From Caloramator sp. E03 (GTDB taxonomy: Bacteria; Bacillota; Clostridia; Clostridiales; Caloramatoraceae), in NCBI RefSeq assembly GCF_006016075.1, contig NZ_CP040093.1, positions 992,001 through 1,056,000 of the forward strand: a DNA stretch of 64,000 nucleotides, in the 5' to 3' direction. Under the pieces are notes generated by a model, which saw nothing but the letters and a program-made list of their open reading frames with translations, was not told the DNA's origin and did not search any database. How positions within the stretch are numbered: position 1 is the stretch's first letter; every line of letters starts with the position of its first letter. This document shows, piece by piece, positions 4,955 through 22,947 of the stretch. Position numbers and translations under genes: made by a program.

Positions 4955-6028
4955 TTAAATATCAAGTGTAATTTCTATATCTGCATCATTTGCATCATCG
5001 TTTGCCTTTTCAGAAACTGGTTTTTTAAGAAAAGCTATAAGTGCTGCTGCCACAGCAGTTCCTGCTGCTAAAGCTATTAAAAGTCCAATAACATTTGTTA
5101 CAGCTGGTATAACTATTATTCCTCCCCACGCTACCTTGTTAGTTACATGAAGCAGCGCTGCTACTGAACATCCAACTGCTGAACCTATCATATTTGCTGG
5201 TATAACCTTTAGAGGATCTGCTGCTGCAAAGGGTATTGCACCTTCTGTTATACCTATAAGTCCCATTAAAAATCCTGCTTTTCCTGCTTCTTTTTCCTCA
5301 GCTGTAAATTTCTTTGGAGCTAAAAATGTTGCTACTCCAACTGCTAGTGAAGGTACTGCAACTCCTACTGCATTTATACCTGCTATTTGATAGTTTCCAT
5401 TTGAAACAGCCATTATTGTAAATGCAAAAGCAACTTTGTTTACAGGACCTCCCATATCAAAAGCATCCATTGCTCCCATTATAATTGCGATTATAACAAT
5501 ACTTCCTGCACTTAAAGAATTAAGCCAGTTTGTAAGTCCCTGAGTAATAGATGTTATTGGTGCTCCAACAACCCACTGCATAAGTCCTGCGGTTATAAAA
5601 GTTCCTATAATTGGTATTATGAATATTGTTTTTAATGATGATAATGCCTTTGGTAGTTTTATTTTTTTAAGGTAGTGTACTGTAACACCTCCAATTAAAC
5701 CTGCTGCAAGTGCACCTAAAAATCCTGCTCCCATTGCATTTCCTACTGCTGCTCCTATTGCTGCTGGAGCGATTCCAGGCCTGTCCGCTATTGAATAAGC
5801 TATAAATCCTGCAAGGATTGGTATCATAAGCTCAAAGCCTCTAACCCCTATAAAGAAAAGGTCATTGAGAAATTTATGTGTTTCCTTATCTGGCACTGCG
5901 CCTTTACCATAAAGTACAACTGACAATGCAAGAAGAATTCCTCCAGCTACAACAAAGGGAATCATATAAGAAACACCCGTCATCAAGTGTTTTCTGGTAT
6001 CTTTAAAAATTCCTTTTAATTCATTCAT
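4955..6028 (-). CDS. PTS fructose-like permease, IIC component
   Basis: A 357-aa membrane protein of the fructose/mannitol-inositol PTS class. It starts MNELKGIFKDTRKHLMTGVSYMIPFVVAGG, the standard opening of fructose-like IIC domains. Later hallmarks are DRPGIAPAAIG, GAMDAFDMGGPVNKVAF and GITEGAIPFAAADP, the last being the conserved substrate-loop GITEGAIPF. It forms the membrane channel that works with the separate IIB (6261) and IIA (7409) encoded upstream on the same strand. The substrate is not set by sequence; with a PflD-type enzyme and a transaldolase alongside, it resembles the E. coli frw set. A 232-base gap before it carries a 24-bp palindrome. The RBS is AGGAGGTC. Confidence 0.9.
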   Translation of the reverse strand: MNELKGIFKDTRKHLMTGVSYMIPFVVAGGILLALSVVLYGKGAVPDKETHKFLNDLFFIGVRGFELMIPILAGFIAYSIADRPGIAPAAIGAAVGNAMGAGFLGALAAGLIGGVTVHYLKKIKLPKALSSLKTIFIIPIIGTFITAGLMQWVVGAPITSITQGLTNWLNSLSAGSIVIIAIIMGAMDAFDMGGPVNKVAFAFTIMAVSNGNYQIAGINAVGVAVPSLAVGVATFLAPKKFTAEEKEAGKAGFLMGLIGITEGAIPFAAADPLKVIPANMIGSAVGCSVAALLHVTNKVAWGGIIVIPAVTNVIGLLIALAAGTAVAAALIAFLKKPVSEKANDDANDADIEITLDI

Positions 6029-6260: not shown

Positions 6261-6572
6261 TTATTGACCTAATTTTTCTATTATTTTTTTCATTATTGCA
6301 TCTGCTTTTTTAATACAGTCACTTGAGCCTACCCTTACTATAGGCTTTCCCTTAAATCTATCTTCCTTTTTAATTCCAATATCGTTTGTAAGTATTACTA
6401 CGTTTGCCTCCTGTATATCCTTTACAGTTAGTTCATTCTCAATGCCTATTGATCCTTGAGTTTCAACCTTAATTTCTAATCCATTCTTTTTTGCAGCAAT
6501 TGCAAGAGCCTCCGCTGCTAAATAAGTATGTGCTACTCCTGATGGACATGCTGTTACTGCTACTATTTTCAT
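6261..6572 (-). CDS. PTS fructose-like IIB component
   Basis: A 103-aa cytosolic IIB of the fructose family. MKIVAVTACPSGVAHTYLAAEAL contains the phospho-accepting Cys9 in the TACPSGVAHT loop, with the usual VETQGS and NVVILTNDIGI segments. It takes phosphate from IIA (7409) and passes it to the sugar during transport through IIC (4955). Strong ribosome site (GGAGGGG). It is separated from the upstream transaldolase gene by a hairpin-bearing gap and from IIC by an operator-like palindrome, so its expression level may be tuned separately from that of its neighbours. Confidence 0.92.
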   Translation of the reverse strand: MKIVAVTACPSGVAHTYLAAEALAIAAKKNGLEIKVETQGSIGIENELTVKDIQEANVVILTNDIGIKKEDRFKGKPIVRVGSSDCIKKADAIMKKIIEKLGQ

Positions 6573-6721: not shown

Positions 6722-7393
6722 TTACCCATTTGTTTTTATGCCTTTTCCAAAAGCGTTTTCCCAATCTTCAATGAATTTATCTACGCTCCAGTCAGTTAAT
6801 GGATGGCTCATCATAGCTCTTATTATATCTGCAGGAACTGTAACACTATGAACCCCAAATTTCATAAGTTCAAGAACTTGCTGCGCATTTTTAAAGCTTG
6901 CAGCTAAAACCTTTGAATTTAAATTATTTACATTAATAATATTTACTAAGTCTTTAACAGTATTCACTCCATCTGCTGATATGTTGTCAAGTCTATTAAC
7001 ATAGGGAGCAACATAATCAGCTCCTGCCTTTGCTGCTAAAAAGCCCTGATGTGCTGTAAATATTGCTGTTGCAGTTATTTTAATGCCTTTCTTTTTAAGT
7101 TCTTTAATAGCCTTTAAGCCATCATTAGTTACCGGAATTTTAACGTACATGTTTTTTCGAAGTCCGCTTATAAACAGAGCCTCTTTTAGTATCTCTTCAT
7201 ATCTAATACTTAAAACCTGTCCATGAATAGGTGTATTTTCTCCTACAATTGAATCTATTTCATTTATTAAATCAACAAATTTTTTCTTTTCTTTTGATAC
7301 TATTGTCGGATTTGTCGTAACCCCGTCAATAGGTAAAATGTCATATAATTCTTTTATCTCTTTTACATTCCCTGTATCCAATAGCAGTTCCAT
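6722..7393 (-). CDS. Fructose-6-phosphate-aldolase-like transaldolase (FSA/TalC family)
   Basis: A 223-aa single-domain TIM-barrel aldolase, the length of E. coli FsaA/FsaB plus a few residues. MELLLDTGNVKEIKEL and GVTTNPTIVSKE give the phosphate and substrate entrance. The Schiff-base lysine is Lys85 in YVKIPVT, and TAIFTAHQGFLAAKAGADYVAPYVNRL follows. Fsa enzymes cleave fructose-6-phosphate, and as recently reported 1-deoxyfructose-6-phosphate, to glyceraldehyde-3-phosphate plus dihydroxyacetone or hydroxyacetone. Many relatives are annotated simply as transaldolase. It lies 15 bases after the PTS IIA gene and near a PflD-type enzyme, the partnership seen in E. coli. The 1-deoxy substrate here is inferred. 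Confidence 0.9.
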   Translation of the reverse strand: MELLLDTGNVKEIKELYDILPIDGVTTNPTIVSKEKKKFVDLINEIDSIVGENTPIHGQVLSIRYEEILKEALFISGLRKNMYVKIPVTNDGLKAIKELKKKGIKITATAIFTAHQGFLAAKAGADYVAPYVNRLDNISADGVNTVKDLVNIINVNNLNSKVLAASFKNAQQVLELMKFGVHSVTVPADIIRAMMSHPLTDWSVDKFIEDWENAFGKGIKTNG

Positions 7394-7408: not shown

Positions 7409-7861
7409 TTATATAACTGATTGTAATAATTCTACAATTTCTTTCTCTGATTCAATCGTATTCAGTTTTTCAATAAAATCTTCATAAAGGAGCCTTCTTG
7501 AAATTGCAGCAAGTATTCTTAAATGTTCATTGCAGGATTCTCCATCAGATGGAACTGCTAATAAGAATACTATTTTTACAGGTTCTCCATCCATAGAATC
7601 CCATTTTATTCCTTCTTTTTTTCTTCCAAAAGCAACCGCAGGAGTTTTTACAGCACTGCATTTTCCATGTGGTATAGCTATACCAAGACCAATGCCTGTA
7701 CTTGTTTTTTTCTCTCTGTCAAACACTTCGTTTATATAGTCTTGATAAGAAACGAGCCTTCCTTCAGAATGAATCAATTTTGCAAGTTCACAAATAACCT
7801 CTTCTCGAGTATCTGCTTCAAGATTTAATTTAATTAAATTCTCATTAATAATTTTAGACAT
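7409..7861 (-). CDS. PTS fructose-like IIA component
   Basis: A 150-aa IIA(Fru) domain protein. The phosphorylated histidine is His65 in GLGIAIPHGK, and the preceding GEREKKTSTGIG-type segment (here DREKKTSTGIG) is typical. It receives phosphate from HPr and hands it to IIB. It sits 20 bases downstream of the PRD activator and 15 bases upstream of the transaldolase gene, so these are clearly cotranscribed. The regulator carries its own IIA-like domain, so this free protein should be the transport IIA. Confidence 0.92.
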   Translation of the reverse strand: MSKIINENLIKLNLEADTREEVICELAKLIHSEGRLVSYQDYINEVFDREKKTSTGIGLGIAIPHGKCSAVKTPAVAFGRKKEGIKWDSMDGEPVKIVFLLAVPSDGESCNEHLRILAAISRRLLYEDFIEKLNTIESEKEIVELLQSVI

Positions 7862-7881
7862 GATAAACCTCCAGTCATAAT

Positions 7882-9915
7882 TTAGTTGTTTTCATCAAGC
7901 AATATTAAAATTTCCTTTGCATTATCACTTTGCCTGATTCTATTTAGTTTATTAAAGTCATCCAATATAGAGTAAAAATACTTAAAAAAGTTTTTTACAT
8001 GATGTTTATCTTCAAATTTTAATGCCAATAGAAAAATAATATCTGCTTTTTCCTTTCCCCACTCTATTTGCTCCTTTAAAGTAATTACAGCAATACAAGA
8101 CTTTATAACCAAATCACTTTCTCCATGGGGAATTGCAACATTGTTTCCAACAGATGTTGATGTAATCTTTTCACGGTTTAAAACAGAACTTGTAAAGCCT
8201 TCAAAAACATAACCCTTTTTTATGAGAACATCACAAATCTTTATTATCAATTCCTTTTTGGATTTTATATTTTCATTTACAAAAATCAAATCCTCATAGA
8301 AAAGCTGAGGTTTATTATTAGCCATCTTTTCGCTGTCATCTTTAGCATAACTATCTTTTTTATCTATTTTTCTCATAATACACTTAATGCTGTTTATATC
8401 TTCATTAACTACAAAGGGGGAAATTTTTACTATTGGCTTACTTTTAAACTTTATGCTGTCAAGAGGTATCGTAGTAATAATAAAATCAAAATCCTCTTCA
8501 TTTAAATGTTTAAGTTCAAACATAGAATAAGTCCCTAATATATTTATTTCTGTTATTTGCTTTTTCAGCCTTGCTGCAACAAGCTCACAGGTACCTATGC
8601 CGCTGCTGCATATAACAATTGCCCGTAGACTATTGTTAATCCTCTCAAGGGCTGCTCCTATATGCATTGCAATATAACCTATTTCCTCTTCTGAAACCTT
8701 TATTTTATAGTATTTTTCAAATAGGCTGCTCGCTGCCCAGCAAGCTCCAAATATAGCAGGATACTTGCTTTTTATTTCAGTCAAAAGAGGATTTCTTAAG
8801 TTAAGACCATAGGTCATGCGGTTTATAGCAGGTCTTAAATGCAGCAGCAGGCTTTTTATAAGCCTCTCATCATTATTCAGATTACATGATAATATATTGC
8901 TTATTAAGGCAATCAATTCTTTAGTAAATTCTAACAGCTGAACATCTGCATCTTCTATTATCTTATTTTCATCGCTAAGCTGTATATTTTCATGCAATTT
9001 TGAGCCTAATATATGAAGCGCTAAATATGCAATCTCACTTTTAGAAAATGAAATATTGAATTCAAATGCCAATCTCATAGTAATCCATTTTGCTGTTTCA
9101 TATTCCTTTGTGTTTATAAGCGCCATCAATTGTTCTTTTGTAACTTCAATATCATTTTCATCCTTTAATCTTTTTAAGCTTATAGCTATGTGAATTATAA
9201 GACCTTCATGAGCTTCATCTGTAAGAGAAAGCATATATCTTTCTTCAGCTTCATTAAGTATAGTTTCAATCTTTCTTAAATCAAATTCTGGAATAAGCTC
9301 CTTTATCTGATTAAAACTCTTATAATCTAATCTGCTATCATAGTGAAGCTCACTAGATTCTTCAAGCATCATTTTTAATTCTTCATTGCTTTTTAAAATT
9401 GACAACAATTCAGAAGCTGCCTTTCTCCAATTCTTTTCATCACCTGAAATCTGAAGGCCATAATTTTGCTTTTTAATAAGCTTCAAATCGAATTTTTCAA
9501 GCCAATTCTCCACAGCTTCCAAATCATTATGAATTGTAGCTCTGCTTACATATAATTCATTAGCTAAATTCTGCATTTTAATGATATCCTTTGCCTGAAG
9601 AAGTTGCTTAATTATATAGTATTTTCTTTCATCTGTAGATAAAGGTTTTATATAAGTTTTGTTCAAGCTAATTAAATTTAAAAGGCTGCTTCGTCTGTTT
9701 TCCGGATACTCAAGCCATATCCCTATCCTTGCTTTTTTATAAATTTTAATATCATCGAAATGCTTTAAAAAATTTTCAAGCTCCTCAAGATCATACCTTA
9801 TCGTTCTGTTTGAGACATTTAATCTTTCTGCAATTTCATCAATTGTTATTGGATTGTTTTGCTCCATTAAAATATTTAATATTTTATTACATCTTTCGCT
9901 TAAGCATTCTTTCAT
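7882..9915 (-). CDS. PTS-regulated transcriptional activator (MtlR/LicR type: HTH, PRDs, IIB-like, IIA-like)
   Basis: A 677-aa multidomain regulator. An HTH at about residues 8-55 (ITIDEIAERLNVSNRTIRYDLEELE) and a second Mga-like HTH at about 100-160 (ELYVSRATIHNDLEAVENWLEKF) come first. Two PRD modules follow, each with histidines in the usual spots (EAHEGLIIHIAISLKRL and IGYIAMHIGAALERI). Then comes a IIB-like segment with ICSSGIGTCELVAARLKKQI, and a C-terminal IIA-like domain with SVGNNVAIPHGESDL. Such proteins switch sugar operons on when the PTS phosphorylation state shows the substrate is present. As the first gene of the unit with IIA, transaldolase, IIB and IIC, it should control this operon; the palindromes at 10028 and 6217 are its candidate sites. 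Confidence 0.92.
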   Translation of the reverse strand: MKECLSERCNKILNILMEQNNPITIDEIAERLNVSNRTIRYDLEELENFLKHFDDIKIYKKARIGIWLEYPENRRSSLLNLISLNKTYIKPLSTDERKYYIIKQLLQAKDIIKMQNLANELYVSRATIHNDLEAVENWLEKFDLKLIKKQNYGLQISGDEKNWRKAASELLSILKSNEELKMMLEESSELHYDSRLDYKSFNQIKELIPEFDLRKIETILNEAEERYMLSLTDEAHEGLIIHIAISLKRLKDENDIEVTKEQLMALINTKEYETAKWITMRLAFEFNISFSKSEIAYLALHILGSKLHENIQLSDENKIIEDADVQLLEFTKELIALISNILSCNLNNDERLIKSLLLHLRPAINRMTYGLNLRNPLLTEIKSKYPAIFGACWAASSLFEKYYKIKVSEEEIGYIAMHIGAALERINNSLRAIVICSSGIGTCELVAARLKKQITEINILGTYSMFELKHLNEEDFDFIITTIPLDSIKFKSKPIVKISPFVVNEDINSIKCIMRKIDKKDSYAKDDSEKMANNKPQLFYEDLIFVNENIKSKKELIIKICDVLIKKGYVFEGFTSSVLNREKITSTSVGNNVAIPHGESDLVIKSCIAVITLKEQIEWGKEKADIIFLLALKFEDKHHVKNFFKYFYSILDDFNKLNRIRQSDNAKEILILLDENN

Positions 9916-10027
9916 AGGTGCACCTTCTCTACATAATGAATAAATGATGTAAAATTTATTTATTATCTCTTACATATTTATAATAACATCTTAATATGCT
10001 GAAACCAACAAAACAAAGGTAATTGTT

Positions 10028-10053: not shown

Positions 10054-10060
10054 ACAAATA

Positions 10061-10085
10061 TAAAAAGCAGCATAATATAGCTGCT
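10061..10085 (-). terminator. Terminator after the glycyl-radical activase gene
   Basis: Read on the - strand, AGCAGC (10085-10080) and GCTGCT (10071-10066) pair around an eight-base loop and are followed by TTTTTA. It separates the SDR-oxidoreductase-GRE-activase unit from the PTS operon. The stem is short, so some read-through is likely. Confidence 0.65.
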
Positions 10086-10090
10086 ACTTT

Positions 10091-10933
10091 TTATCCACCA
10101 ACAACAACTCTAAATCCTTTATTTTCAATGAACTCTTTTATATTTTCTATCTCCTCTTTTTCGAGAATCTTTATATCCTTTAATTCATATTCTTTACCAA
10201 TTGCCCTATATTTAGAACTGCCATATTGATGAAAAGGTAAAATATGCACAAGCTTTAAACCGAATTTTGAAATATAATCCAATATTTTTTCAATGTTTTC
10301 TATGTTTGCTGTATAGTGTGGTATTAATGGTATTCTTGGGATTATTTCAACTTTATCACTATTTTTAATCAATATTTCAAAATTATTTTTCATAATATCA
10401 ATATCCTGATTAACTACTTCTTTTGCAAGTTTTTTGTCCATTATCTTAAAGTCCCACAGGACAGTATCAATATACTTTGCCATTTCTATTATTATATCCT
10501 GCCTTCCCATTCCCGTTGTTTCAATAGCAGTATTTATGCCTTTCTTTTTTAATTCTTTTAAAAGCTCAACTATAAACTCTCCCTGAAGCAGCGGTTCTCC
10601 ACCGGATAATGTTACTCCCCCTCCTGTTGAGTCAAAAAATACTGCATCTTTATTAACCTCATCAAGCACTTCACTTATAGTCATTTCTTTTCCTATGGTT
10701 TCTAAAGCCCCTGTGGGACAATCTTCAGGGGATTTACTGCACTTATAACAGCTTGTACTACTGCACCCTATGCAAAGGCTCTGCTTTCTCATTATCTCTT
10801 TTTCAAACTTTTGAGATTCAGGGTTAGAACACCAGGGGCAAGTTAAAGGACAGCCTTTAAAGAATATAACTGTCCTTATACCATCACCATCATGCAGACT
10901 ATATCTTTGTATATTAAAAATCATAGCCTTCAT
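10091..10933 (-). CDS. Glycyl-radical enzyme activating enzyme (PflC/YbiY type, radical SAM)
   Basis: A 280-aa radical-SAM activase. Cys28, Cys32 and Cys35 in CPLTCPWCSNPES hold the catalytic [4Fe-4S] cluster. A ferredoxin-like insert follows with Cys54, Cys57, Cys62, Cys65 and Cys72, as in activases of dehydratase- or PflD-type enzymes rather than the short PflA. GGGVTLSGGEP contacts SAM. It generates the glycyl radical on the enzyme encoded immediately upstream (11-base gap). It acts only in the absence of oxygen. A terminator-like hairpin follows. Confidence 0.93.
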   Translation of the reverse strand: MKAMIFNIQRYSLHDGDGIRTVIFFKGCPLTCPWCSNPESQKFEKEIMRKQSLCIGCSSTSCYKCSKSPEDCPTGALETIGKEMTISEVLDEVNKDAVFFDSTGGGVTLSGGEPLLQGEFIVELLKELKKKGINTAIETTGMGRQDIIIEMAKYIDTVLWDFKIMDKKLAKEVVNQDIDIMKNNFEILIKNSDKVEIIPRIPLIPHYTANIENIEKILDYISKFGLKLVHILPFHQYGSSKYRAIGKEYELKDIKILEKEEIENIKEFIENKGFRVVVGG

Positions 10934-10944
10934 TCAATCACTTC

Positions 10945-13236
10945 CTAAAATGAATGTTCTGTTCTTCTTATAATATCGTTTTGAATCGCTTCATCAAGCT
11001 CAACAAATATTGCACTGTATCCTGCTACCCTAACAACTAAGTTTTGATATTTTTCAGGATGTCTTTGTGCTTCTCTTAGTGTTTCTGCTGAAATTACATT
11101 AAATTGTACATGCTGTATTTTTAGTCTGCTGAATGCTCTAATAAATCCTGCAAGCTTTTTTATTCCTTCAAATCCTTCTAATGCTTGAGGTGAAAATTTA
11201 ACATTAAGAAGGCTCCCATTAGAAGTTAGATAATTGTCGAGTTTGCTTACACTTTTTAAAACAGCAGTAGGCCCATTTTTATCCCTTCCAACCATAGGAG
11301 AGAGCCCTCCATCTGCAAGCTGTTCGCCCTTCATTCTTCCATCCGGAGTTGCTCCAACAGCTGCGCCTAAAGGTATATGAGCTGAAACTGTATATGAGCC
11401 TGGCTGGAATGTTCCACCCCTTATATTTTTATATTTTTCAACTTCCCTGCAATAATGGGAAAGCACCTCTGAACCTAAATAATCAACCTCATCAACGTCA
11501 TTTCCATATTTAGGATATTTATTTATAAATCTCTGCCTTAAATCCTCTTTTCCTTCATAGTTGCTCTCTAAAACGTCTGTTAATTCTTTTATTGTAATCA
11601 GCTTTTCCTCAAAAACAGCCTTCTTTATAACATATAAAGAATCGCTTAGATTAGGCGCCCCTATACCCTGTACTCCTGAAAAATTATATATTGCACCGCC
11701 TTCTGTTACATCCATGCCCTTTTCTATGCATCCATTAATAAAGTTTGATAAAAATGGTGTTGGCGCACATTCCCTGTGAGCCATGTCTACTATATTTGAA
11801 CCTTCTATCATATCCTTTACATATTTAGATATATTTCCTTTTAATTTATCTAAAAGCTCTTCAAAGCTGTCTATTTCTGATTTTTTCTCCCTTAGTGTAA
11901 TCTCAAATACTTTTAATAAATTAAATAATGCTATGTCATGAAGCCCATAAGTTTTCCCAGGTATGGATAATTCTACACATCCAACCACAGCATAATCCCT
12001 TGCATCATATATTGAAACCCCTCTATTTAAAAATGCCGGTATGTTAACCTCATCATTGAAAACCTGAGGCATCCCTGTACCAAGTCTTATTATCTCGGAT
12101 GCTTTTATTAAAAAATCCATTGGAGTATTTTCATTTACTCTTATACTTAAATTTGGCTGTGGAAGTCTTATATCTCCTAAAATTTCAAGCATGATGTATG
12201 ATAGCTCATTTATTGATGCTCTTCCATTTTCATCAACCCCGCCTAAAACTATAGTATAGCCTGTTGGAAAGCCTGCAAAATATTTAGCACTTTCTGTACT
12301 TCTAAGGGCTACAATCGTATTGAATTTAATATACAAGCATCTTAAAAGTTCCTTAATAAATTCAATATCAATACCATCTTCTAAAGATTTTTTAAAATAA
12401 GGATACATGTATTGGTCAAAACGTCCAATAGATATTGAACTTGCATTGGATTCATGCTGAAAAATAACGCTTATATACCAGAAAAGCTGCAGTGCTTCAT
12501 AAAAAGTCTCAGGTTTATCCTCTGAAATCTTATATGAAATTCTTGATATCTCCTCAAGTTCTTTTTTTCTATCTAAATCTCTCTCCTTTGCTGCCATATC
12601 CTCTGATAGTTTTGCATATCTTAAAATATAATCTCTTGCAGCCTCAAGTGTTATAAGTGAAGCTCTGTAAAAATAATTATCCTCATTTTCATTTATTTTT
12701 TCTTTTACTTCATTTATCATTACTTTTAGACCTTTTTTAAGCAATATTGAATAATCAGGTATAATATGACCTTGTCCTTTATCCGTCTGGTTTAAAGCGA
12801 TTATTTTCATATTTACAGTATCTTTTATGTTCTGAGGAATATGTTCATTGCAGTAATCCTTCAAAGACTTACCTGCCCAATATGGGTAAAGCTCGTTTTT
12901 AAAATACTCTTTATCCTCCTGTGAAATTTCGAATCTATCCTGTGGTCTTGTTGAAAATTCATCTAACTCCTCTAAAATCCAATAGGGTGACATTTCAGGT
13001 GAGGCAACTCCTGCACGGGGTTTAACAGTTCTATCACCAACAATAAGTTCTCCATCTTTTATAGCTATTTCTACTTTACTTAATATATTAGAAAGTGCCT
13101 TTGCTCTTCTTATAACTGAAGGTTCACCTTCAGTGTTTTTATAACTTTCAGTATAAAGCCTTGCTCTTTCAAGGGATATTTGTCTTTTTTCCTTAAAAAG
13201 TTCGTTTTTTAAAGTTTCTATTCTTTTACTCAGCAT
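10945..13236 (-). CDS. Glycyl-radical enzyme, PflD/YbiW-like (candidate anhydrohexitol-6-phosphate C-O lyase)
   Basis: A 763-aa glycyl-radical enzyme. The radical glycine is Gly739 in RVAGYSA, 24 residues from the end. The thiyl cysteine is Cys420 and the general base Glu422, in VVGCVEL. The Cys-x-Glu pair marks the C-O/C-N lyase and dehydratase branch, not pyruvate formate-lyase, which has Cys-Cys. The length matches E. coli PflD. The neighbours (activase, fructose-like PTS, Fsa-type aldolase) are those of PflD/YbiW, reported to open 1,5-anhydromannitol- or 1,5-anhydroglucitol-6-phosphate to 1-deoxyfructose-6-phosphate. Substrate assignment rests on context; glycerol, choline, propanediol and hydroxyproline enzymes are less likely given the sugar genes. 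It follows a Gfo/Idh/MocA gene by 14 bases, so it is cotranscribed with it. Confidence 0.9.
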   Translation of the reverse strand: MLSKRIETLKNELFKEKRQISLERARLYTESYKNTEGEPSVIRRAKALSNILSKVEIAIKDGELIVGDRTVKPRAGVASPEMSPYWILEELDEFSTRPQDRFEISQEDKEYFKNELYPYWAGKSLKDYCNEHIPQNIKDTVNMKIIALNQTDKGQGHIIPDYSILLKKGLKVMINEVKEKINENEDNYFYRASLITLEAARDYILRYAKLSEDMAAKERDLDRKKELEEISRISYKISEDKPETFYEALQLFWYISVIFQHESNASSISIGRFDQYMYPYFKKSLEDGIDIEFIKELLRCLYIKFNTIVALRSTESAKYFAGFPTGYTIVLGGVDENGRASINELSYIMLEILGDIRLPQPNLSIRVNENTPMDFLIKASEIIRLGTGMPQVFNDEVNIPAFLNRGVSIYDARDYAVVGCVELSIPGKTYGLHDIALFNLLKVFEITLREKKSEIDSFEELLDKLKGNISKYVKDMIEGSNIVDMAHRECAPTPFLSNFINGCIEKGMDVTEGGAIYNFSGVQGIGAPNLSDSLYVIKKAVFEEKLITIKELTDVLESNYEGKEDLRQRFINKYPKYGNDVDEVDYLGSEVLSHYCREVEKYKNIRGGTFQPGSYTVSAHIPLGAAVGATPDGRMKGEQLADGGLSPMVGRDKNGPTAVLKSVSKLDNYLTSNGSLLNVKFSPQALEGFEGIKKLAGFIRAFSRLKIQHVQFNVISAETLREAQRHPEKYQNLVVRVAGYSAIFVELDEAIQNDIIRRTEHSF

Positions 13237-13250
13237 AAATTCACCTCATA

Positions 13251-14297
13251 TCACCTTAATCCGCTCTTATATGCTTCATCTATTAATCTTTGACATTTTA
13301 ATGCATCATTAAAGGATGCTGCATTCCCTGTATCTTTATTTTCATATATTGAATTTGCAAAATTTATAATAGATGCTGTATGTGCACTTTGAAAATATCC
13401 GAGAATATTTCTTTCATCAGGGAAAAACTTCATATCATTAGAATTGCTAGCAGGTTTTATTAAATTCACTGTATTTGTATCATTTAAATAAACTTCTAAA
13501 ACGTATGGATTTTTAAAATTTATTTTCATGCTTCCCTTTGTTCCGAAAACTTCAAAGCTATCCCTTTGTTCACCCTCTGCAAATATTCTCGACACTTCAA
13601 TGCTTCCCTCTGTGCCATCAATTAGCTCTATTTCGCATCTTGAAACTTCGTCTACATAGCTTCTTTCTTTGAAATATATTTTATTTTTTGCATTAATATT
13701 TTTAATCTCTCCAAGGGTGAACTGTACTAAATCGATAAGATGAACTCCCAAATCTAAAAGCGCACCTCCGCCCGATGACTCTAATGTTCTCCAGCTTCCC
13801 CTTTTGCTGCTGCTCAAATAGCTTTTATGATAGGTTTTTAATTTAAAATCAATAATATCTCCTATTGTTCTTTTTACAACTTCTTTTCTTAAAAGCCCTA
13901 CAGCAGGTATAAATCTATACATTAATGCAACTGCATTTTTAATTCCATTATCATTTACAAGTTCAGTCATTTTAAGAGCATCTTCATAGTTTGATGACAG
14001 AGGCTTTTCACAATATACTGCCTTTTTGTATTTTACAGCTTTTAAAACATATTCTAAATGAGAATCGTTTGGAGTACATATGCTTATAAAATCTATACTC
14101 TCGTCCTTTAGTGTCTCTTCAACATCAATAGTGTTTTTAACGCCGTAAAGCTTTATATCCTTTGGATTTCTCGTTACAACATACTTAAGATTCAAAGAAA
14201 AGGGCAGATTAAATCTTATATTTGCATCATATGCTGCCAATGCATGGGTTTTTGCAATAGAACCGTATCCTATTATGGCAAAATTAATAGAATTCAT
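13251..14297 (-). CDS. Gfo/Idh/MocA family sugar oxidoreductase, copy 1
   Basis: A 348-aa NAD(P)-dependent oxidoreductase. The Rossmann motif is IGYGSIAKTHA (residues 9-19). The conserved EKP motif is YCEKPL (95-100), and the C-terminal domain carries GGGALLDLGVHLIDL (176-190) with the likely catalytic His186. Members oxidise or reduce sugars, inositols and anhydro-sugars; 1,5-anhydrofructose reductase belongs here, which is suggestive beside a PflD-type enzyme. It lies between the SDR and GRE genes with 14-base gaps. A close paralogue is at 17865. The exact substrate is unknown. Confidence 0.88.
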   Translation of the reverse strand: MNSINFAIIGYGSIAKTHALAAYDANIRFNLPFSLNLKYVVTRNPKDIKLYGVKNTIDVEETLKDESIDFISICTPNDSHLEYVLKAVKYKKAVYCEKPLSSNYEDALKMTELVNDNGIKNAVALMYRFIPAVGLLRKEVVKRTIGDIIDFKLKTYHKSYLSSSKRGSWRTLESSGGGALLDLGVHLIDLVQFTLGEIKNINAKNKIYFKERSYVDEVSRCEIELIDGTEGSIEVSRIFAEGEQRDSFEVFGTKGSMKINFKNPYVLEVYLNDTNTVNLIKPASNSNDMKFFPDERNILGYFQSAHTASIINFANSIYENKDTGNAASFNDALKCQRLIDEAYKSGLR

Positions 14298-14311
14298 AAT
14301 CTCACCTGTCC

Positions 14312-15181
14312 CTATTTAAAATTTAGTTTATATTCTTTAATACATTTTGATATTGCTTCCTTCGTTGTTGGAAATACTATTCCGTATTTTTTTATTTTTT
14401 CTGTATTAAGTCTTACATCCCTTGGTGCATCTTTATACTTTCCCTCATCTTTAACTAATATTTCATCTATTCTATCTTCAAGTCCCATTTCAGTTAGTAT
14501 GTGTTTTACAACATCATATCTGCTCATATCATTTGTACTTCCTATATGATATGTTCCATAGGGTATATCAAACACTTTTACAATGTTTTCTATCATATCA
14601 TAAACATATGTCATTCCCCTAAATTCATGGGGAGATGCATATATCTTTTCTCCTTTTATTAGGGAAGTTATTGTTTCCCATAATATGTTTGAAGCGATGC
14701 CCTTATTTCTGTCAGATAATCCAAAAAGCCATGTAAACCTTACTACCCATAGTTCATCTAATATATCTTTTAACAGCTTTTCAGCTTCAAGTTTATTTTG
14801 ACCATATACTGTGTTTGGAACTGGAATATCTTCTTCAGTATATGGACCTGACTGTATATTCCCGTTAAAAACCTGTTCAGTGCTTATAAAAAGAAGCTTT
14901 GAATTATATTTTTTACAAGCCTTTGCAACATTTACTGCCCCATCTACATTGATTTTTCTTGCGATTTCTGGATTTTTGTTGCAAAAATCAGTAACAGCAA
15001 TTGCTGCTGCGTGAATAACATAATCAGGTCTAAATTTTTCAAAGGCTTCATATACTTTTTTTTCATCAGTTATGTTTAAATCATCCTTATCTGTTGATAA
15101 AATTTCATATTCATTTTTATATCTGTCAAAAAATCTTGTGCAAAAGAATCCCAATCCACCTGTTAATAAAATTTTCTTCAT
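14312..15181 (-). CDS. RmlD-like SDR (NAD-dependent epimerase/reductase), copy 1
   Basis: A 289-aa extended short-chain dehydrogenase of the RmlD (dTDP-4-dehydrorhamnose reductase) type. It shows TGGLGFF at the nucleotide site, HAAAIAVTDFC, and the catalytic Tyr126/Lys130 in VYGQNKLEAE. The start at 15181 (MKKILLTGG) is preferred over the in-frame GTG at 15190, because AGGAG sits eight bases before it and the paralogue (18938) has the same length. No other dTDP-rhamnose genes are nearby, so a rhamnose role is not supported. First gene of the unit that continues into the Gfo/Idh/MocA, GRE and activase genes. Confidence 0.86.
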   Translation of the reverse strand: MKKILLTGGLGFFCTRFFDRYKNEYEILSTDKDDLNITDEKKVYEAFEKFRPDYVIHAAAIAVTDFCNKNPEIARKINVDGAVNVAKACKKYNSKLLFISTEQVFNGNIQSGPYTEEDIPVPNTVYGQNKLEAEKLLKDILDELWVVRFTWLFGLSDRNKGIASNILWETITSLIKGEKIYASPHEFRGMTYVYDMIENIVKVFDIPYGTYHIGSTNDMSRYDVVKHILTEMGLEDRIDEILVKDEGKYKDAPRDVRLNTEKIKKYGIVFPTTKEAISKCIKEYKLNFK

Positions 15182-15295
15182 CCTGCTCACTCCTAATTAA
15201 TATTGTTTTTTATTATTGATTATTGTTTATTCTTATTATATATTATTATCAGACAATTATCAATATAAATAATAAAATTAAACATGGAGGTTTAT

Positions 15296-15784
15296 ATGGA
15301 AAAACTTGAAATTAAACTTAATGAAATTGAAAAGCAAGAAAAAGAACTTCAATTTGATTATTTCAGCAGCGATTCTGCTTTAAAAATAGGTTTGATAATA
15401 ATTGAAAAGGCTAAAATATTATCTAAACCTATAGCTATTGATATTACAAAAAATTCTAATAAACTTTTTTATTATTCCTTTGATGGAGCATCTCCCGATA
15501 ATTATGAATGGATAAAAAGAAAAAACAATGTGGTAAACAGGTTTTTTAGAAGCTCACTTTATATTGGAACAAAACTTAAATTAATTAATAAGACTATAGA
15601 AGAAAAGTATTTAATATCTTCAAAAGAATATGCTCCTTTTGGAGGCGCATTCCCAATTATAATTAAAAATACCGGCGTTGTTGGAACCATTACAGTATCA
15701 GGCCTTTCTCAAGAAGAAGATCATAATTTAGTTGTTGAATCTATAAAAGAATATTTAAAGTTGCTTCAAAACAATAAAGAATAA
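15296..15784 (+). CDS. UPF0303 / HbpS-like (GlcG-related) protein
   Basis: A 162-aa protein matching the UPF0303 family pattern. The conserved stretch [19 protein letters not shown] is followed by [35 protein letters not shown] and, near the end, [24 protein letters not shown]. The family is sometimes described as heme-degrading-domain or HbpS-like; its biochemical role is not settled. The start at 15296 is preferred to the ATG at 15284, because GGAGG overlaps the upstream one. It is divergent from the SDR gene and lies 75 bases before the DeoR regulator gene's preferred start, so the two are probably one operon. Confidence 0.82.
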
Positions 15785-15859
15785 TAAATTTTATCTTGTA
15801 AAAAACATTTTAATGCTGAATAATTATATTAAGCAATTAATATGGAAAGGAGCAGTATA

Positions 15860-16621
15860 GTGTTTCCAGAAGAGAGATTAGAAGAGATTCTTAAAATATT
15901 AAAATCAGAGGGAAAGTTAAAGGTAAAAGATTTAAGCATAAAATTTAATGTCACTGAGGACTGCATCAGAAAAGATTTAAAAGTTCTCGAAAACAAAGGA
16001 TATCTAAAAAGAACCTATGGCGGAGCTGTGCTTTTTAGAGAATCCGCTCATGAGCAGGATATAGTTTCAAGAAAGGATATAGATATATCCTCAAAGACAA
16101 TAATAGCTCAAAAAGCCTTCGATATTATTGAGGATAGAGAAACAATATTTCTCGACATATCAACTACCAATATTATACTTGCAAAGCTTTTATCAGAAAG
16201 CAGTAAAAATATTACTGTTGTTTCAAATATGCTTGAAGTGATTAATGTTCTCTCAAACAAGAACAATATAACTGCAATATGCATAGGAGGAATATTAAAT
16301 AAAAATCTTAATGGTTTTGTCGGTGCAGCATCAATTGAATTAATTTCGAAATATAAATTCGATAAAACCTTTATAGGAAGCTGCGGAATTGATGTTTTTG
16401 ATAAAAGCATTACAACCTTTCAAATAGAAGACGGTATAACCAAATCATCTATAATAAAAGCCGGAAAAAAGAATTATATCGTTATGGAAAAAAAGAAGTT
16501 TTATTATGATGGCAATTATAAATTCGCTTCCTTAGATGATATAGACAGCATTATTACAGATGAATTAATAGATGATGATATTAAAAATATACTAATTGAA
16601 AACGGCATTGAGATAATTTAG
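15860..16621 (+). CDS. DeoR-family transcriptional regulator
   Basis: A protein of about 253 residues, with an N-terminal HTH (RLEEILKILKSEGKLKVKDLSIKFNVTEDCIRKDLKVLE) typical of DeoR and a C-terminal sugar-phosphate-sensing domain. That domain includes FLDISTTNIILAKLL, VVSNMLEVINVL and a GGILN..LNGFVGAAS segment. I prefer the GTG at 15860, which has AAAGGAG at good spacing; an ATG at 15842 overlaps that ribosome site. DeoR proteins repress sugar operons and respond to phosphorylated sugars. Placed between the two SDR/oxidoreductase pairs, it may control one or both of them (inferred). Confidence 0.88.
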   Translation: MFPEERLEEILKILKSEGKLKVKDLSIKFNVTEDCIRKDLKVLENKGYLKRTYGGAVLFRESAHEQDIVSRKDIDISSKTIIAQKAFDIIEDRETIFLDISTTNIILAKLLSESSKNITVVSNMLEVINVLSNKNNITAICIGGILNKNLNGFVGAASIELISKYKFDKTFIGSCGIDVFDKSITTFQIEDGITKSSIIKAGKKNYIVMEKKKFYYDGNYKFASLDDIDSIITDELIDDDIKNILIENGIEII

Positions 16622-16662
16622 CATATTTTATTGATTTTTATCAAAAATTTAATCTCACAATA

Positions 16663-16693
16663 AAAACCGGTTAAATATCCGGTTTTCTTTTTT
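16663..16693 (+). terminator. Terminator after the DeoR gene
   Basis: AAAACCGG pairs with CCGGTTTT around an eight-base loop, followed by CTTTTTTTG. It ends the UPF0303-DeoR unit. Confidence 0.8.
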
Positions 16694-16800
16694 GCCATAT
16701 TTTTTATATTTAAACTTAATGTTTTATATAATTAAAACTTTTAAGCAGCATAATTAACTTAAATAACTATTTTTATTTTTGTACGATTAAAAAGATAAAT

Positions 16801-16974
16801 TTGCCCTTTTGTCTTATCAATTGGGCTCTAATTGCTGCAATATTGATCATTTCAGCTGTTTCAAATTTTATAATTATAATTTATTCTATTAGAATAGTAA
16901 AAATGAAAAAAAGCTCAAAAAAGCAAGAAAGAGCTTACTGCATTATATCAGCAGATAGCCCCCTCGGATGCTAA
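16801..16974 (+). other. Possible remnant of a membrane-protein gene
   Basis: The frame from TTG 16801 encodes a single strongly hydrophobic segment (INWALIAAILIISAV then SNFIIIIYSI) followed by basic residues (KMKKSSKK) and a stop at 16972. No ribosome site precedes it and nothing identifies the family. It lies in a 419-base gap next to a gutted pseudogene, so it is most likely debris. The rest of the gap holds no other recognisable feature. Confidence 0.3.
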
Positions 16975-17040
16975 GCTTAAAAAACAGCATGAAGAGCTAA
17001 GTGCTTTAGAGCACCATCTCCAAAAAAGCTTAGTTTCATA

Positions 17041-17805
17041 TTATAAAATATCCATTGCTGCAAACATTCCATCTCTTACTGCCTCAAGGACCTTTGCAGG
17101 TTTTACGCAATCTCCAATAGCTCTAAACATTGCAACAGAACCGCGTAGGCTTTCAACAACATCTTTTTTGGGTTTCATGCCAACAGCATAAACTACTGTA
17201 TCTGCCTCATAAAAGATTTCTTTGCCATCTTTATCTTTTACTGTAATACCATTTGGGTAAATGCGAATTTCATCTAAAACCATTAGTGGAAAACGTGCAC
17301 GATTTTCAAGGCTTCCACCATACTTATCTTTACGTTTGTTGGTAAGCGGTGATAAAAACTGTGCCAGAAGCCAGCCATGGCCGCCATGGATCATAACCAT
17401 GTCAAATCCAAAATCTTTTGCAGCAGCTACTGCATTTGCATAATTATTTGCTACTTCCATCATCATCTCTTCATCCATTTCTTCAACTACAATGCCATCT
17501 TTACGAACAAAACCTGAAGGTCCAATTGGATTTTTGCCATCTTTTATTGTGGAAGGATGATTGGCATTGCCAACGTGATTGAGCTGTATTGAAGCAACAG
17601 CTCCATGGACTTTAATTGCCTCAGTAAGAACTACAAGAGATTCTATATGATGTACTGTAAGATGTGGACTTACGATATCCAGGCTGTGATCATGACGGGC
17701 AGCCCTGTCAAAATCTACAAATGTCTCTGTAACTGTAACTGCAGCAAATCCACCTCGTGCTAGGAAAAGATGAATTAAAATAGTTCTAAAATAAATGTTG
17801 GGCAT
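17041..17805 (-). pseudogene. NADH:flavin oxidoreductase (Old Yellow Enzyme/2-enoate reductase type), internally deleted
   Basis: The first ~185 residues match the flavin barrel of the long FadH/2-enoate-reductase class: ARGGFAAVTVTET, IQLNHVGNAN, MVMIHGGHGWLLAQFLSP and KYGGSLENRARF. Immediately after LDEIR the frame jumps to the far C-terminal nucleotide-binding domain (EADTVVYAVGMKPKKDVVESL, AIGDCVKPAKVLEAVRDG). Full-length relatives are about 640-670 residues, so roughly 400 residues are missing from the middle. The first ~60 residues are also missing. The FeS cysteines and most of the FAD domain are gone. A remaining functional role is very unlikely. Confidence 0.88.
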
Positions 17806-17864
17806 AATCCCAACATATTTTTTATCTTTTCATTTATTTAACAATGAATCACATTTAACTTACT

Positions 17865-18908
17865 TCACTTTAATGGGTTTTCATAAGCTTCTTTAATTAT
17901 TTTCTGGCATTTTAGACCATCTTCAAATGAAGCGGCAATACCTATATCCTTGTTTTCATAAATTGAATTTGCAAAATTTATTATTGATGCAGTATGTGCA
18001 CTTTGAAAATATCCAAGCACATTTCTCTCATCAGGATAAAATTGCATATCCTCTGCGATGTCTGGTTTAACTAGTTTTACCATATTTTCTTCATTTAAAA
18101 AGATTTCAAGAACATAAGGATTTTTAAAATTTAATTTCATACTTCCTTTGGTACCGTAAATTTCAAAACTATCCCTTTGATCAGCTTCAGCAAAAATCCT
18201 TGACACCTCTATACTTCCTTGAACTCCATTAAAAAGTTTAATATCGCAATATGCAATTTCATCAACAAAGCTTCTTTCTTTAAAGTAAATTCTTGTTTTT
18301 GAATCAATTTTTTCAATTTCACCTAAAGTAAAAAAAATCAAATCAATTAGATGGGCACCTAAATCTAAAAGTGCTCCTCCTCCTGAAGATTTAAGTGTTC
18401 TCCAAGTTCCTTTTTTGTTGCTGTTTAAATAACTTTTATGATATATTTTTATTTTAAAATCAATAATATCACCAATTGTTTTATTTGCTATCTCTCTTTT
18501 TAAAAGCCTAACAGCAGGAAGAAATCTGTACATAAACGCTACTGCATTTTTAACATTGTTTTTATTAACAGCCTCTGTCATTTTTAAAGCATCTTCATAA
18601 GTAGATGCCAAAGGTTTTTCACAATATATAGCTTTATAATATTGTACTGCCTTTTCAACATATTCTAAATGTGAATCATTTGGGGTACTTATGCTTATAA
18701 AATCAATACTTTCATCTTCCAAAACTTCTTGAACATTAATACAATTTTTTACACCAGGAAGTTTTATTTCACAGGGTTTTCTCGTAACAACATACTTAAG
18801 ATTTAATGTAAAAGGTAAATTATATCTTAAATTAGCATCGTAAGCTGCTAAAGCATGGGCTTTTGCAATTGAACCAAATCCAATTATAGCAAAATTTATA
18901 CTTTTCAT
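17865..18908 (-). CDS. Gfo/Idh/MocA family sugar oxidoreductase, copy 2
   Basis: A 347-aa close paralogue of the protein at 13251. IGFGSIAKAHALAAYDAN, YCEKPLA and GGGALLDLGAHLIDL are all kept, including the catalytic-type histidine. The start at 18908 (MKSINFAIIG) is preferred: an in-frame GTG six bases earlier lies too close to AAAGGGTG. It follows its SDR partner with a 29-base gap, mirroring the order of copy 1, and nothing but the gutted OYE gene follows. Substrate unknown; both copies probably act on related sugars. Confidence 0.87.
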   Translation of the reverse strand: MKSINFAIIGFGSIAKAHALAAYDANLRYNLPFTLNLKYVVTRKPCEIKLPGVKNCINVQEVLEDESIDFISISTPNDSHLEYVEKAVQYYKAIYCEKPLASTYEDALKMTEAVNKNNVKNAVAFMYRFLPAVRLLKREIANKTIGDIIDFKIKIYHKSYLNSNKKGTWRTLKSSGGGALLDLGAHLIDLIFFTLGEIEKIDSKTRIYFKERSFVDEIAYCDIKLFNGVQGSIEVSRIFAEADQRDSFEIYGTKGSMKLNFKNPYVLEIFLNEENMVKLVKPDIAEDMQFYPDERNVLGYFQSAHTASIINFANSIYENKDIGIAASFEDGLKCQKIIKEAYENPLK

Positions 18909-18937
18909 TTTCACTTCACACCCTTTATTTATATATT

Positions 18938-19807
18938 TTATTTGAGATTTAACTTATATTCTTTAATACATCTTGTTATTGCATCTTTTGTTGACGGAAA
19001 AACTATACCATACTTGTTTATTTTTGATGTATCAAGTCTTACATCCCTGGGGAAGTTTTTATACTTTTCTTCATCTTTTATAAGTACTTCATCAATCCTG
19101 CTCGATAACCCCATTTCAGTTAATATATGCTTTACTACATCATATCTGCTCATATCATTAGAGCTGCCAATATGATATGTGTCATAGGGAATATCAAAAA
19201 CCTTAATAATATTTTCAACCATATCATAAATATATGTCATTCCTCTAAATTCATTAGGAGATGCATAGATCCTTTCCCCTTTTATAAGCGTAGATACTGT
19301 TTCCCATAATATATTTGATGCCATCCCCATATTTCTTTCGGGCATTCCAAAAAGCCATGTAAATCTTAGTATCCAATACTCACAAATAGTTTCTTTTATT
19401 ATCTTTTCTGCCTCAAGTTTATTCTGACCATATACAGTATTAGGTACAGGAATATCTTCTTCACTATATGGCCCCATCTTTATATTCCCGTTAAAAACCT
19501 GCTCACTGCTTATAAATACAAGTTTTGAACCAAACTCTCTACATGCTCTGGCTACAAAAGCAGTACCATCAACATTGACTTTCCTTGCAATTTCAGGGTT
19601 TTTATTACAAAATTCAGTAACTGCAATTGCTGCTGCATGTATTACATAATCAGGTTTAAATCTTGAAAATACTTCAAATACCTTTTCTTCATCACATACA
19701 TTAAATTCCTCTTTCCCTAAAGATAAAATTTCATATTCATTTTTATATCTCTCATAAAACCTTGTAGAAAAGAATCCCTTACCGCCTGTTAATAAAATTT
19801 TTTTCAT
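18938..19807 (-). CDS. RmlD-like SDR, copy 2
   Basis: A 289-aa paralogue of 14312-15181 with the same TGGKGFF nucleotide site, AAAIAVTEFC, SSEQVFNGN, and VYGQNKLEAE with the Tyr/Lys pair. The duplicated pair keeps gene order and near-identical protein lengths but differs by many scattered residues, so the duplication is not very recent. First gene of a two-gene unit with the Gfo/Idh/MocA copy 2. Confidence 0.86.
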   Translation of the reverse strand: MKKILLTGGKGFFSTRFYERYKNEYEILSLGKEEFNVCDEEKVFEVFSRFKPDYVIHAAAIAVTEFCNKNPEIARKVNVDGTAFVARACREFGSKLVFISSEQVFNGNIKMGPYSEEDIPVPNTVYGQNKLEAEKIIKETICEYWILRFTWLFGMPERNMGMASNILWETVSTLIKGERIYASPNEFRGMTYIYDMVENIIKVFDIPYDTYHIGSSNDMSRYDVVKHILTEMGLSSRIDEVLIKDEEKYKNFPRDVRLDTSKINKYGIVFPSTKDAITRCIKEYKLNLK

Positions 19808-20115
19808 TTTCCCACTCCTGTTCTTTATTTGTTTTTATTTATTATTATTGTGTATTATAATTATACAATTTTCAATATTGCTATAAAACTTATATAACTA
19901 AGTAGCCGCATGTAAAAAAATAGAAAGGAATAAAATATGTTTCCTAATTTATAATAACATTGAATTAATTTAACTTTCTCTTGCAATTTGAATATTTGTA
20001 AAACTTATTTTTTAAATGAATTACATCATATAAACGCTATGTAGACATATTATGACATATTATGATATAATTATATAAGAAAAATTTGCTAAATATCGAC
20101 AATCTGGAGGGGTTT
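19808..20115. other. Divergent promoter region, no gene seen
   Basis: About 300 bases between SDR copy 2 (leftward) and a membrane-protein gene (rightward). It is very AT-rich, with several TATAAT-like boxes and no credible ORF, hairpin terminator or known RNA element. Confidence 0.5.
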
Positions 20116-20773: not shown

Positions 20774-21850
20774 ATGAAAAGGTATAACAATGAAATTACT
20801 TGTTTTCAATATATGTATATAATTCAAGGTGCTATGATTGGTGTTGGAATACTTTCTCTATCTTCATCTGTATGCAAAAGTGCCCAGCAGTCAGGATGGA
20901 TTAGTGTGCTTTTAGGTGGAATCTATCCAGTGTATATTGTTATTGTTTCATCTTTAATTTATAAAAATATGAGGTACATAAATTTTTATGACCTAAATAA
21001 AAAAATATACGGAAAATATATATCTTATATATCTTACTTTATATTTATCTTGTATTTTATATTCTTTAGTGCTCTTATTCTTTCTGGTTTTACTAACGTA
21101 CTTACTTTTTCAACAGTTAAATTTTTACCTTCATATATGATTACTGCTATTACTTCTTTTGCTATTTATATTTCTATAAACTATGGCCTTACATATATAG
21201 GTAGGTTATCAGAAATTATTTTTCCTCTTACAATATTACTTCTTTTAATTCCACTATACTTTATTAATATGGGGGATATTACTAATCTGCTTCCTTTAAT
21301 AAGCAGCTACGAAGGAATAATAAAAGCAATGCCTGATACGCTTTTTTCTTATTCAGGAATTGAAATATGTTTTTTAATAATACCTTTTATATCAAAAAAG
21401 AAAAATATAATTAAATATGGAATTATCGGTAGTATAATTACTATCATAATGTATACAGTAACGGTTTTACTTATAATAAACTATTGTGGTTGGAAGTTAA
21501 CTTCAAAACTTCAATATCCTTTTCTATATCTTGTTGCTGGTGCTGATATCCCGGTATTATCAAATTTTGAACCAATATTTATATTCTTTTGGGGTAATAA
21601 AGTGTTTCAAACTATTTCAGCATGTAGCTTTACAAGTTCTTATTTGATATCACAATCGTTTAATATAGATTATAATTATTGTTCGTTAATAGTATGTGTA
21701 TTAATATTTTTAACATCTTTCTTTTTAATACCTGAATCAAACCGATCTAAAATAATAAATATTTCTCTTCCCTATATGATAATAACTATTTTTCTATGGT
21801 CTTTGCTTACATTACTTTTAAGCTATATAAAAAGAGGTGCATCAAAGTGA
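20774..21850 (+). CDS. Spore germination receptor permease subunit, GerAB family
   Basis: A 358-aa protein with about ten membrane segments and the GerAB/YndE signature (amino-acid-permease-like): QYMYIIQGAMIGVGILSLSSSVCKSAQQSGWISVLLGG at the start and YSGIEICFLIIPFI in the middle. GerAB proteins sit in the inner spore membrane and bind the germinant. Ribosome site AAGGTG. Its stop overlaps the GTG of the next gene by four bases (GTGA), so the two are translationally coupled. Confidence 0.92.
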   Translation: MKRYNNEITCFQYMYIIQGAMIGVGILSLSSSVCKSAQQSGWISVLLGGIYPVYIVIVSSLIYKNMRYINFYDLNKKIYGKYISYISYFIFILYFIFFSALILSGFTNVLTFSTVKFLPSYMITAITSFAIYISINYGLTYIGRLSEIIFPLTILLLLIPLYFINMGDITNLLPLISSYEGIIKAMPDTLFSYSGIEICFLIIPFISKKKNIIKYGIIGSIITIIMYTVTVLLIINYCGWKLTSKLQYPFLYLVAGADIPVLSNFEPIFIFFWGNKVFQTISACSFTSSYLISQSFNIDYNYCSLIVCVLIFLTSFFLIPESNRSKIINISLPYMIITIFLWSLLTLLLSYIKRGASK

Positions 21851-22938: not shown

Positions 22939-22947
22939 GTGTATTGA

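Follow-up and report, generated by a model that had tools for sequence, protein, structure and literature searches.

The 64,000-nucleotide stretch of the Caloramator sp. E03 chromosome analysed here (contig NZ_CP040093.1, positions 992,001 to 1,056,000; hereafter the window) raises the question of why one genome maintains two gene pairs, each encoding a short-chain dehydrogenase/reductase (SDR) and a Gfo/Idh/MocA-family oxidoreductase (Gfo), and what they do beside a glycyl radical enzyme (GRE). A sequence-only reading of the window had suggested that the pairs extend the substrate range of the GRE pathway by epimerisation or oxidation of an anhydro-sugar, which we also consider the best reading. 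We propose that SDR and Gfo would act as accessory oxidoreductases in an anhydrohexitol regulon under DeoR control. Its core would comprise a phosphotransferase system (PTS), a glycyl radical lyase of PflD type that would open 1,5-anhydromannitol-6-phosphate (AM6P), and an aldolase of FSA type. Taken as a whole, we hold this proposal to be evenly poised between right and wrong.

The PflD-type lyase unit and its predicted operator

The window GRE scored 1212 bits against the PflD equivalog NF007437 (cut-off 1109) and is 59.5% identical to Escherichia coli PflD and 36.7% identical to YbiW. We also compared 89 diagnostic columns, each invariant within 13 clostridial PflD sequences and within 6 clostridial YbiW sequences but with a different residue in the two sets, E. 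coli PflD having had no part in their choice. At these columns E. coli PflD showed the PflD state 84 times, the YbiW state never and neither state 5 times, and E. coli YbiW showed the YbiW state 58 times, the PflD state 8 times and neither 23 times. An FSA-type aldolase and an FrwBC-type PTS lie near the window GRE, as expected for the PflD pathway; in E. coli, the FrwC and FrwB to which IIC and IIB are 59% and 70% identical are encoded next to pflD. By these sequence criteria, the enzyme is a PflD ortholog, of predicted AM6P lyase type, and not a YbiW. According to PMC12441222, YbiW opens 1,5-anhydroglucitol-6-phosphate (AG6P) and PflD opens AM6P, in each case after PTS uptake. The genes run on one strand in the order SDR1, Gfo1, GRE, activase, large regulator, IIA, FSA-type aldolase, IIB and IIC (Table 1), which bears out the earlier claim that copy 1 of the pair leads the GRE unit.

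To locate a common control element, we drew the training set for a motif from other genomes, taking 13 upstream regions at PflD/DeoR loci and excluding both the window and L068, its close relative; an earlier, palindromic round had included L068 and the SDR1 region of the window, and the widths of 22 and 29 bases were chosen after that round had been seen. The trained model is a 29-base direct-repeat motif around AAACAATA. When both strands of the window were scanned (127,944 positions), the site before SDR1 scored 21.1 and the site before SDR2 12.7, followed by a next-best score of 3.6 elsewhere. Because the SDR2 operator ranks second in the window, copy 2 probably belongs to the same regulon as the PflD unit. 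In the whole genome the SDR1 site again came first (E 0.005); there were 22 matches at E ≤10, and among eight loci checked the near-full-length intergenic matches were those of SDR1 and SDR2.

We then applied a matrix built from 11 sites to 1.85 Mb of fetched stretches, which had mostly been picked for SDR, Gfo or GRE genes and not at random, with a threshold of 11 that was our own choice. Thirty-two sites exceeded this threshold, 31 of them by PflD, SDR, Gfo, UPF0303 or DeoR genes and one inside an open reading frame (ORF); 11 of the 32 had built the matrix, and 20 of the remaining 21 adjoin regulon genes. One resampled control yielded two sites above 11 and none above 13. By hand count, a site above 11 was present in the stretches read from 23 of the 28 genomes scored as carrying PflD (see below), and none above 11 was seen for G083, G121, G150, G164 and G103. 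All seven fetched loci centred on or containing YbiW-type GREs (L220, L234, L236 and L267-L270) lacked a site above 11. The SDR genes of G182 and G181, which lie 45 kb from PflD, are directly preceded by a site (15.6 and 14.8, respectively). A 30-genome scan at E 0.02, with scoring confined to 150 of each genome's thousands of candidates, gave, among those scored, 7 hits in 7 genomes, all at regulon places and all within the 23 model-building sequences, and no hit in the other 23 genomes, many of which have a weaker training site. We hold it very probable that SDR and Gfo are members of the regulon. Since the motif sits beside DeoR genes, DeoR is its predicted binder.

Co-occurrence of SDR and Gfo with PflD

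We surveyed 225 genomes of the order using identity thresholds of at least 60% for PflD (28 genomes), 58% for SDR (27), 49% for Gfo (22) and 50% for YbiW (31). The Gfo hits of G016, G017 and G221 (34-38%), SDR hits below 58% and 13 of the 44 YbiW hits (46-48%) were dropped before counting, and G103 (contig end), G192 and G095 (split ORFs) were scored as PflD genomes though their genes are incomplete or in pieces. SDR was found in 18 of the 28 PflD genomes versus 9 of the 197 others, and Gfo in 15 versus 7. At least one of the two was present in 25/28 PflD genomes and 15/197 genomes without PflD (Fisher 1e-19), or by genus in 10/11 versus 6/45 (p 2e-6), both tests ignoring shared ancestry; in 19 of the PflD genomes no more than 5 kb separates PflD from an SDR or a Gfo. 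No such link was detected for YbiW (8/31 versus 32/194, p 0.21; 2/24 among YbiW genomes without PflD), and with the 13 dropped hits restored a hand count gave SDR or Gfo in 14 of 44 YbiW-like genomes and in 2 of the 30 without PflD.

The simplest reading of these counts is that each enzyme yields the PflD substrate, because either alone accompanies PflD and neither tracks YbiW. With NADP(H) as cofactor, each would reversibly convert a 1,5-anhydro-ketose 6-phosphate (for example 1,5-anhydrofructose-6-phosphate) into AM6P or its epimer. Acting in concert, SDR and Gfo could convert AG6P to AM6P by oxidation followed by re-reduction, and one radical lyase could thereby take several anhydro-sugars. 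Copy 2, as an old duplicate or sister copy, would provide extra capacity or shifted specificity under the same control. For the reaction itself, reduction of the anhydro-ketose phosphate to AM6P or epimerisation, we infer substrates, cofactor and direction, and our confidence lies between doubtful and evenly divided. The fuller picture is tentative and rather less likely than not: a clostridial redox funnel in which SDR and Gfo would interconvert AG6P, anhydrofructose-6-phosphate and AM6P, a single PflD would degrade all three, and the system, switched by DeoR, would have been amplified as a promoter-plus-pair unit.

The same counts bear on an alternative in which SDR and Gfo are stand-ins, each alone reducing the same anhydro-ketose phosphate to AM6P and the two being redundant where both occur. 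Among the 28 PflD genomes, 10 have only SDR, 7 only Gfo, 8 both and 3 neither, and each gene is found directly by PflD without the other (e.g., at L077 and L108), as this alternative would have it. However, eight genomes have the two genes side by side on the same strand, copy 2 consists solely of the pair and has long been under purifying selection, and there is no mutual exclusion in PflD genomes (18 × 15/28 = 9.6 expected by hand, 8 seen). We consider it unlikely, if still worth carrying forward, that the enzymes are mere substitutes for one another.

The pair as a module and the history of copy 2

Both pairs lie where the sequence-only reading had placed them, with the same gene order and nearly equal protein lengths (Table 1); their intergenic spacing, which it had called conserved, proved to be alike but not identical (14 and 23 bp). 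Between the SDR copies, identity is 75% at the protein level and 79% at the DNA level; between the Gfo copies it is 74% and 75%, respectively. Estimates of dN and dS (NG86) were 0.14 and 0.96 for the SDR copies and 0.16 and 1.56 for the Gfo copies. With dN far smaller than dS, and dS itself around 1 to 1.6, both SDR and Gfo copies are, as judged from codon divergence, under purifying selection and their split is old. In trees, copy 2 was sister to copy 1 of three same-genus genomes (support 91/72 for SDR and 99/95 for Gfo), and the second copy is absent from G005 and G006. A recent local duplication was rejected on the dS values and on the position of copy 2 outside the copy-1 clade in both trees; copy 2 may instead reflect an old duplication with loss or the gain of a sister copy, both of which fit the trees. 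No third SDR or Gfo copy was found in the 2.98-Mb one-contig genome, where the next matches are partial (SDR 26-33%, Gfo 26-29%). The GTG start of SDR1 is probably three codons too far upstream, with M4 as the likely start, since M4 is invariant in a 19-row alignment.

Far from being confined to this genome, SDR and Gfo are next neighbours on the same strand in 8 of the 225 genomes and 5 genera, namely in G000 (twice), G005, G006, G129, G130, G138, G157 and G192. The suggestion that the pairing is a conserved module thus holds in part: the adjacent pair recurs in several genera and both genes track the PflD-type GRE, but the pairing is not obligatory, one gene standing alone in 17 of the 28 PflD genomes. 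Outside the order, no Gfo of the group was seen beside a GRE; the phylum-wide searches covered Gfo and GRE, but not SDR, in 398 genomes each, with E cut-offs of 1e-60 and 1e-230. The Gfo-like proteins found there reached at most 36% identity, and no GRE was present in the 13 stretches fetched for them; the stretches of two further PflD-like GREs (53%; G225 and G526) contained no SDR or Gfo. A scan of genome contigs with the Gfo alignment gave, among the 80 loci listed, L128 at 68%, L129 at 40% and the others at no more than 33%; L128-L131 were read for neighbours.

In G005 the SDR–Gfo–GRE–activase segment is 87-95% identical to the window, whereas the regulator, aldolase and PTS are only 36-63% identical, from which we conclude that the downstream half has been exchanged. 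Comparison of window positions 4955-13236 with L068 and L069 reads, at the level of sequence, as modular exchange at one chromosomal place. In G006, a genome of the same genus (86% complete), the pair adjoins a relative of the window permease gene 3419-4909 and the IIC-to-GRE block is absent. The lyase gene is not intact in every genome: a PflD-type GRE is broken up in G089 (L084 8944-12415), with SDR and aldolase kept, and split in G192 and G095 (L097 4451-6588 and L228), with Gfo kept.

Several observations weigh against the proposed regulon function. The operator before SDR2 scores lower than the one before SDR1 (12.7 versus 21.1), and its lead under the 22-base model is small (9.4 versus 8.3 at position 15769). 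In the whole genome it takes third place (E 0.34), since a partial match of 18 bases within an ORF comes ahead of it as well. The promoter regions of SDR1 and SDR2 are alignable, and shared promoter descent could explain the SDR2 site. The co-occurrence counts ignore phylogeny. Since the PflD genomes G009, G162 and G164 have neither SDR nor Gfo, the PflD lyase does not need them. Pairs also occur in G006, G129, G130 and G138, which lack PflD and the operator alike, so that the pair can have another job. In G149 (L098 8321-10194) an SDR of another clade (47%) stands 26 bp from an unrelated Gfo (27%), showing that SDR–Gfo pairing is not confined to the window type of Gfo. Finally, about 21 kb outside the window the genome encodes a second GRE, of YbiW type and 55% identical to E. 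coli YbiW (L234, C1:968976-971360), so that conversion of AG6P to AM6P is not required here; as a necessity, this epimerisation is unsupported. The organism may, to judge from its two lyase genes, degrade both anhydroglucitol and anhydromannitol. The L234 locus also holds an FSA-like aldolase, an activase and another DeoR.

The PflD-less pairs, three of them (G129, G130 and G138) with an SDR from another clade, and the G149 arrangement are what would be expected if the two genes formed a dehydrogenase module for sugars or cyclitols in general, with a function of its own, repeatedly recruited by PflD and sometimes kept without it, as are orphan SDRs amid functionally unrelated genes in G015, G191, G185 and G206. 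Against this stand the strong association with PflD and the finding that, apart from G089 with its fragmented GRE, PflD genomes are the only ones in which sites above 11 were seen by these genes. We therefore rate a general module as improbable.

Table 1. Features of the SDR–Gfo locus (window positions; aa, amino acids)
Feature	Coordinates	Strand	Remarks
SDR1, RmlD-like extended SDR	14312..15190	-	292 aa; lead gene of the PflD unit; ORF and family scan
Gfo1, Gfo/Idh/MocA oxidoreductase	13251..14297	-	348 aa; K98, D182 and H186 conserved
SDR2, second SDR copy	18938..19807	-	289 aa
Gfo2, second Gfo copy	17865..18914	-	349 aa
Predicted operator before SDR1	15200..15228	-	Direct repeats around AAACAATA, just downstream of the SDR1 -10; rank 1 in window and whole genome
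Promoter-like site before SDR1	15235..15263	-	TTGATA-17-TATAAT (11/12)
Predicted operator before SDR2	19832..19860	-	Rank 2 in window (29-base model); weaker than that of SDR1
Promoter-like site before SDR2	19847..19875	-	9/12
GRE, PflD ortholog (by sequence)	10945..13236	-	
GRE activase, PflC type	10091..10933	-	
Large regulator	7882..9915	-	By-eye reading
PTS IIA-like	7409..7861	-	28% to part of E. coli PtsA
FSA/transaldolase-like aldolase	6722..7393	-	42% to E. coli FsaB
PTS IIB	6261..6572	-	70% identical to E. coli FrwB
PTS IIC	4955..6028	-	59% identical to E. coli FrwC
UPF0303/HbpS-like protein	15284..15784	+	Divergent from SDR1
DeoR-family regulator	15842..16621	+	Predicted operator binder
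Old yellow enzyme (OYE) type remnant	17041..17805	-	Not considered part of the function
Terminator-like hairpin 3' of Gfo2	17795..17816	-	Consensus match, not proof

Profile matches agreed with the earlier description of what lies between the pairs, namely UPF0303 (NF002696, 195.8 bits; cut-off 146), DeoR and a gutted OYE gene whose 254-residue product matches two stretches of profiles of about 645 residues. UPF0303 and DeoR point away from SDR1, and the OYE remnant lies downstream of Gfo2. A terminator-like hairpin (17816-17795) about 50 bp past Gfo2 overlaps the first bases of the OYE-remnant ORF; as a consensus match, and not proof, it fits the view of copy 2 as an isolated two-gene unit. 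The large regulator 7882-9915 is, by eye, putatively of the PTS-regulation-domain type. Farther along, three consecutive genes at 20774-24411 are, by eye, presumably a spore germination receptor operon, and the ORF at 25393-26301 presumably encodes an REP-associated transposase.

Likely activities of the two enzymes and comparison with known systems

For the Gfo model (predicted local distance difference test, pLDDT, 84), the best structural match was levoglucosan dehydrogenase (Z 39.6, rmsd 2.5, 343 aligned residues). The model also matched 1,5-anhydrofructose reductase 2glx (Z 35.4, rmsd 2.2, 310 aligned, 20% identity), a likeness of fold that alone shows no function. K98 and H186 are invariant in a 21-row Gfo alignment. 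At the end of the second strand Gfo has T42-R43 where levoglucosan dehydrogenase has A-E, a replacement that points to NADP(H) as cofactor. In the 1,5-anhydrofructose reductase of Sinorhizobium morelense, S33D is part of the change that lets the enzyme accept NADH, according to PMC5817062, and its S33 position would correspond to the cofactor-site position in Gfo. Gfo1 and Gfo2 fell below the cut-offs both for levoglucosan dehydrogenase (NF052479; 140.2 and 152 versus 650 bits) and for the myo-inositol 2-dehydrogenase IolG (TIGR04380; 112.7 and 108.4 versus 355 bits).

These structures also speak to a possible downstream or clean-up role, in which the enzymes would act on 1-deoxyfructose-6-phosphate or hydroxyacetone or would remove toxic anhydrohexitol phosphates. 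Mammalian hexokinase is inhibited by AG6P, as two reports state (PMC12441222 and PMC10439028). A HAD phosphatase (Pfam Hydrolase_3) is present in some of the same loci. On the other hand, several enzymes among the closest structural matches of Gfo use sugars or cyclitols whose ring is intact, and in the pathway described by Ma et al. (2024) FSA reportedly handles the product and GldA reduces hydroxyacetone; we regard a clean-up role as a distant prospect. The phosphatase gene was observed repeatedly by DeoR, PflD or SDR (L076 4474-5382, L084 7764-8756, L082 9653-10552 and L073 10833-11702; Hydrolase_3 in the two scanned), and by analogy it is a possible candidate for an anhydrohexitol-phosphate phosphatase.

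For SDR, the model (pLDDT 91) was closest to chain 9gsc, RmlD of Trichomonas vaginalis (Z 33.4, rmsd 2.3, 279 aligned, 34% identity), and the sequence matches Pfam RmlD_sub_bind (E 3e-49). However, TIGR01214 requires 224 bits, whereas SDR1 and SDR2 reached 149.9 and 144.5, respectively, and no RmlC match was found in the genome (97.8% complete), a control search being positive in 11 of 14 genomes and over the cut-off in 6. Despite these two likenesses, a role of SDR in making cell-wall rhamnose, as dTDP-4-dehydrorhamnose reductase, is scarcely credible: it is rejected on the TIGR01214 shortfall and the missing RmlC, and a predicted operator in common with the PflD regulon further argues against it. 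By these tests, neither outcome named as fatal to the original suggestion came about, whether a pair confined to this genome or an SDR that groups with genuine dTDP-rhamnose enzymes.

SDR, Gfo, the regulator and the predicted operator offer direct targets for assays of the intracellular fate of the keto form and of the two epimers in bacteria. The locus is also an annotation trap, since the nearest families would label SDR a dTDP-rhamnose reductase and Gfo a levoglucosan or inositol dehydrogenase, although neither reaches such a cut-off. Among the literature matches listed, no title or opening of an abstract concerned a gene for an SDR or a Gfo in the PflD pathway.

Among known systems, levoglucosan dehydrogenase (NF052479, 6a3f-6a3j) is both the top structural match and the top NCBIfam profile of Gfo, but Gfo lies far below its cut-off and carries Arg in place of its acidic cofactor residue. 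The S. morelense 1,5-anhydro-D-fructose reductase, which makes 1,5-anhydromannitol, shares with Gfo the Gfo/Idh/MocA family, the fold, probable NADP(H) use and, if our proposal is right, the type of product; it differs in its low identity (20%) and in having the free sugar as its substrate, within an aerobic pathway (PMC12441222). RmlD shares with SDR the fold and the YxxxK motif (Y129 and K133 in SDR), but SDR is under the equivalog cut-off and its genome is without a detected RmlC. The closest parallel overall is the anhydroglycolysis of E. coli, reportedly first described in 2024 (Ma et al., JACS), in which FsaA or FsaB is said to handle the lyase product and GldA to reduce hydroxyacetone. 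The window has a PflD ortholog, an activase, an FSA-type aldolase and an FrwB/FrwC-type PTS, and the ybiV gene beside ybiW recalls the HAD phosphatase of the clostridial loci. The regulators, however, are not the same, and no SDR or Gfo is annotated around E. coli pflD (16 kb) or ybiW (12 kb), which sets the clostridial regulon, with its two predicted accessory oxidoreductases, apart from the E. coli pathway.

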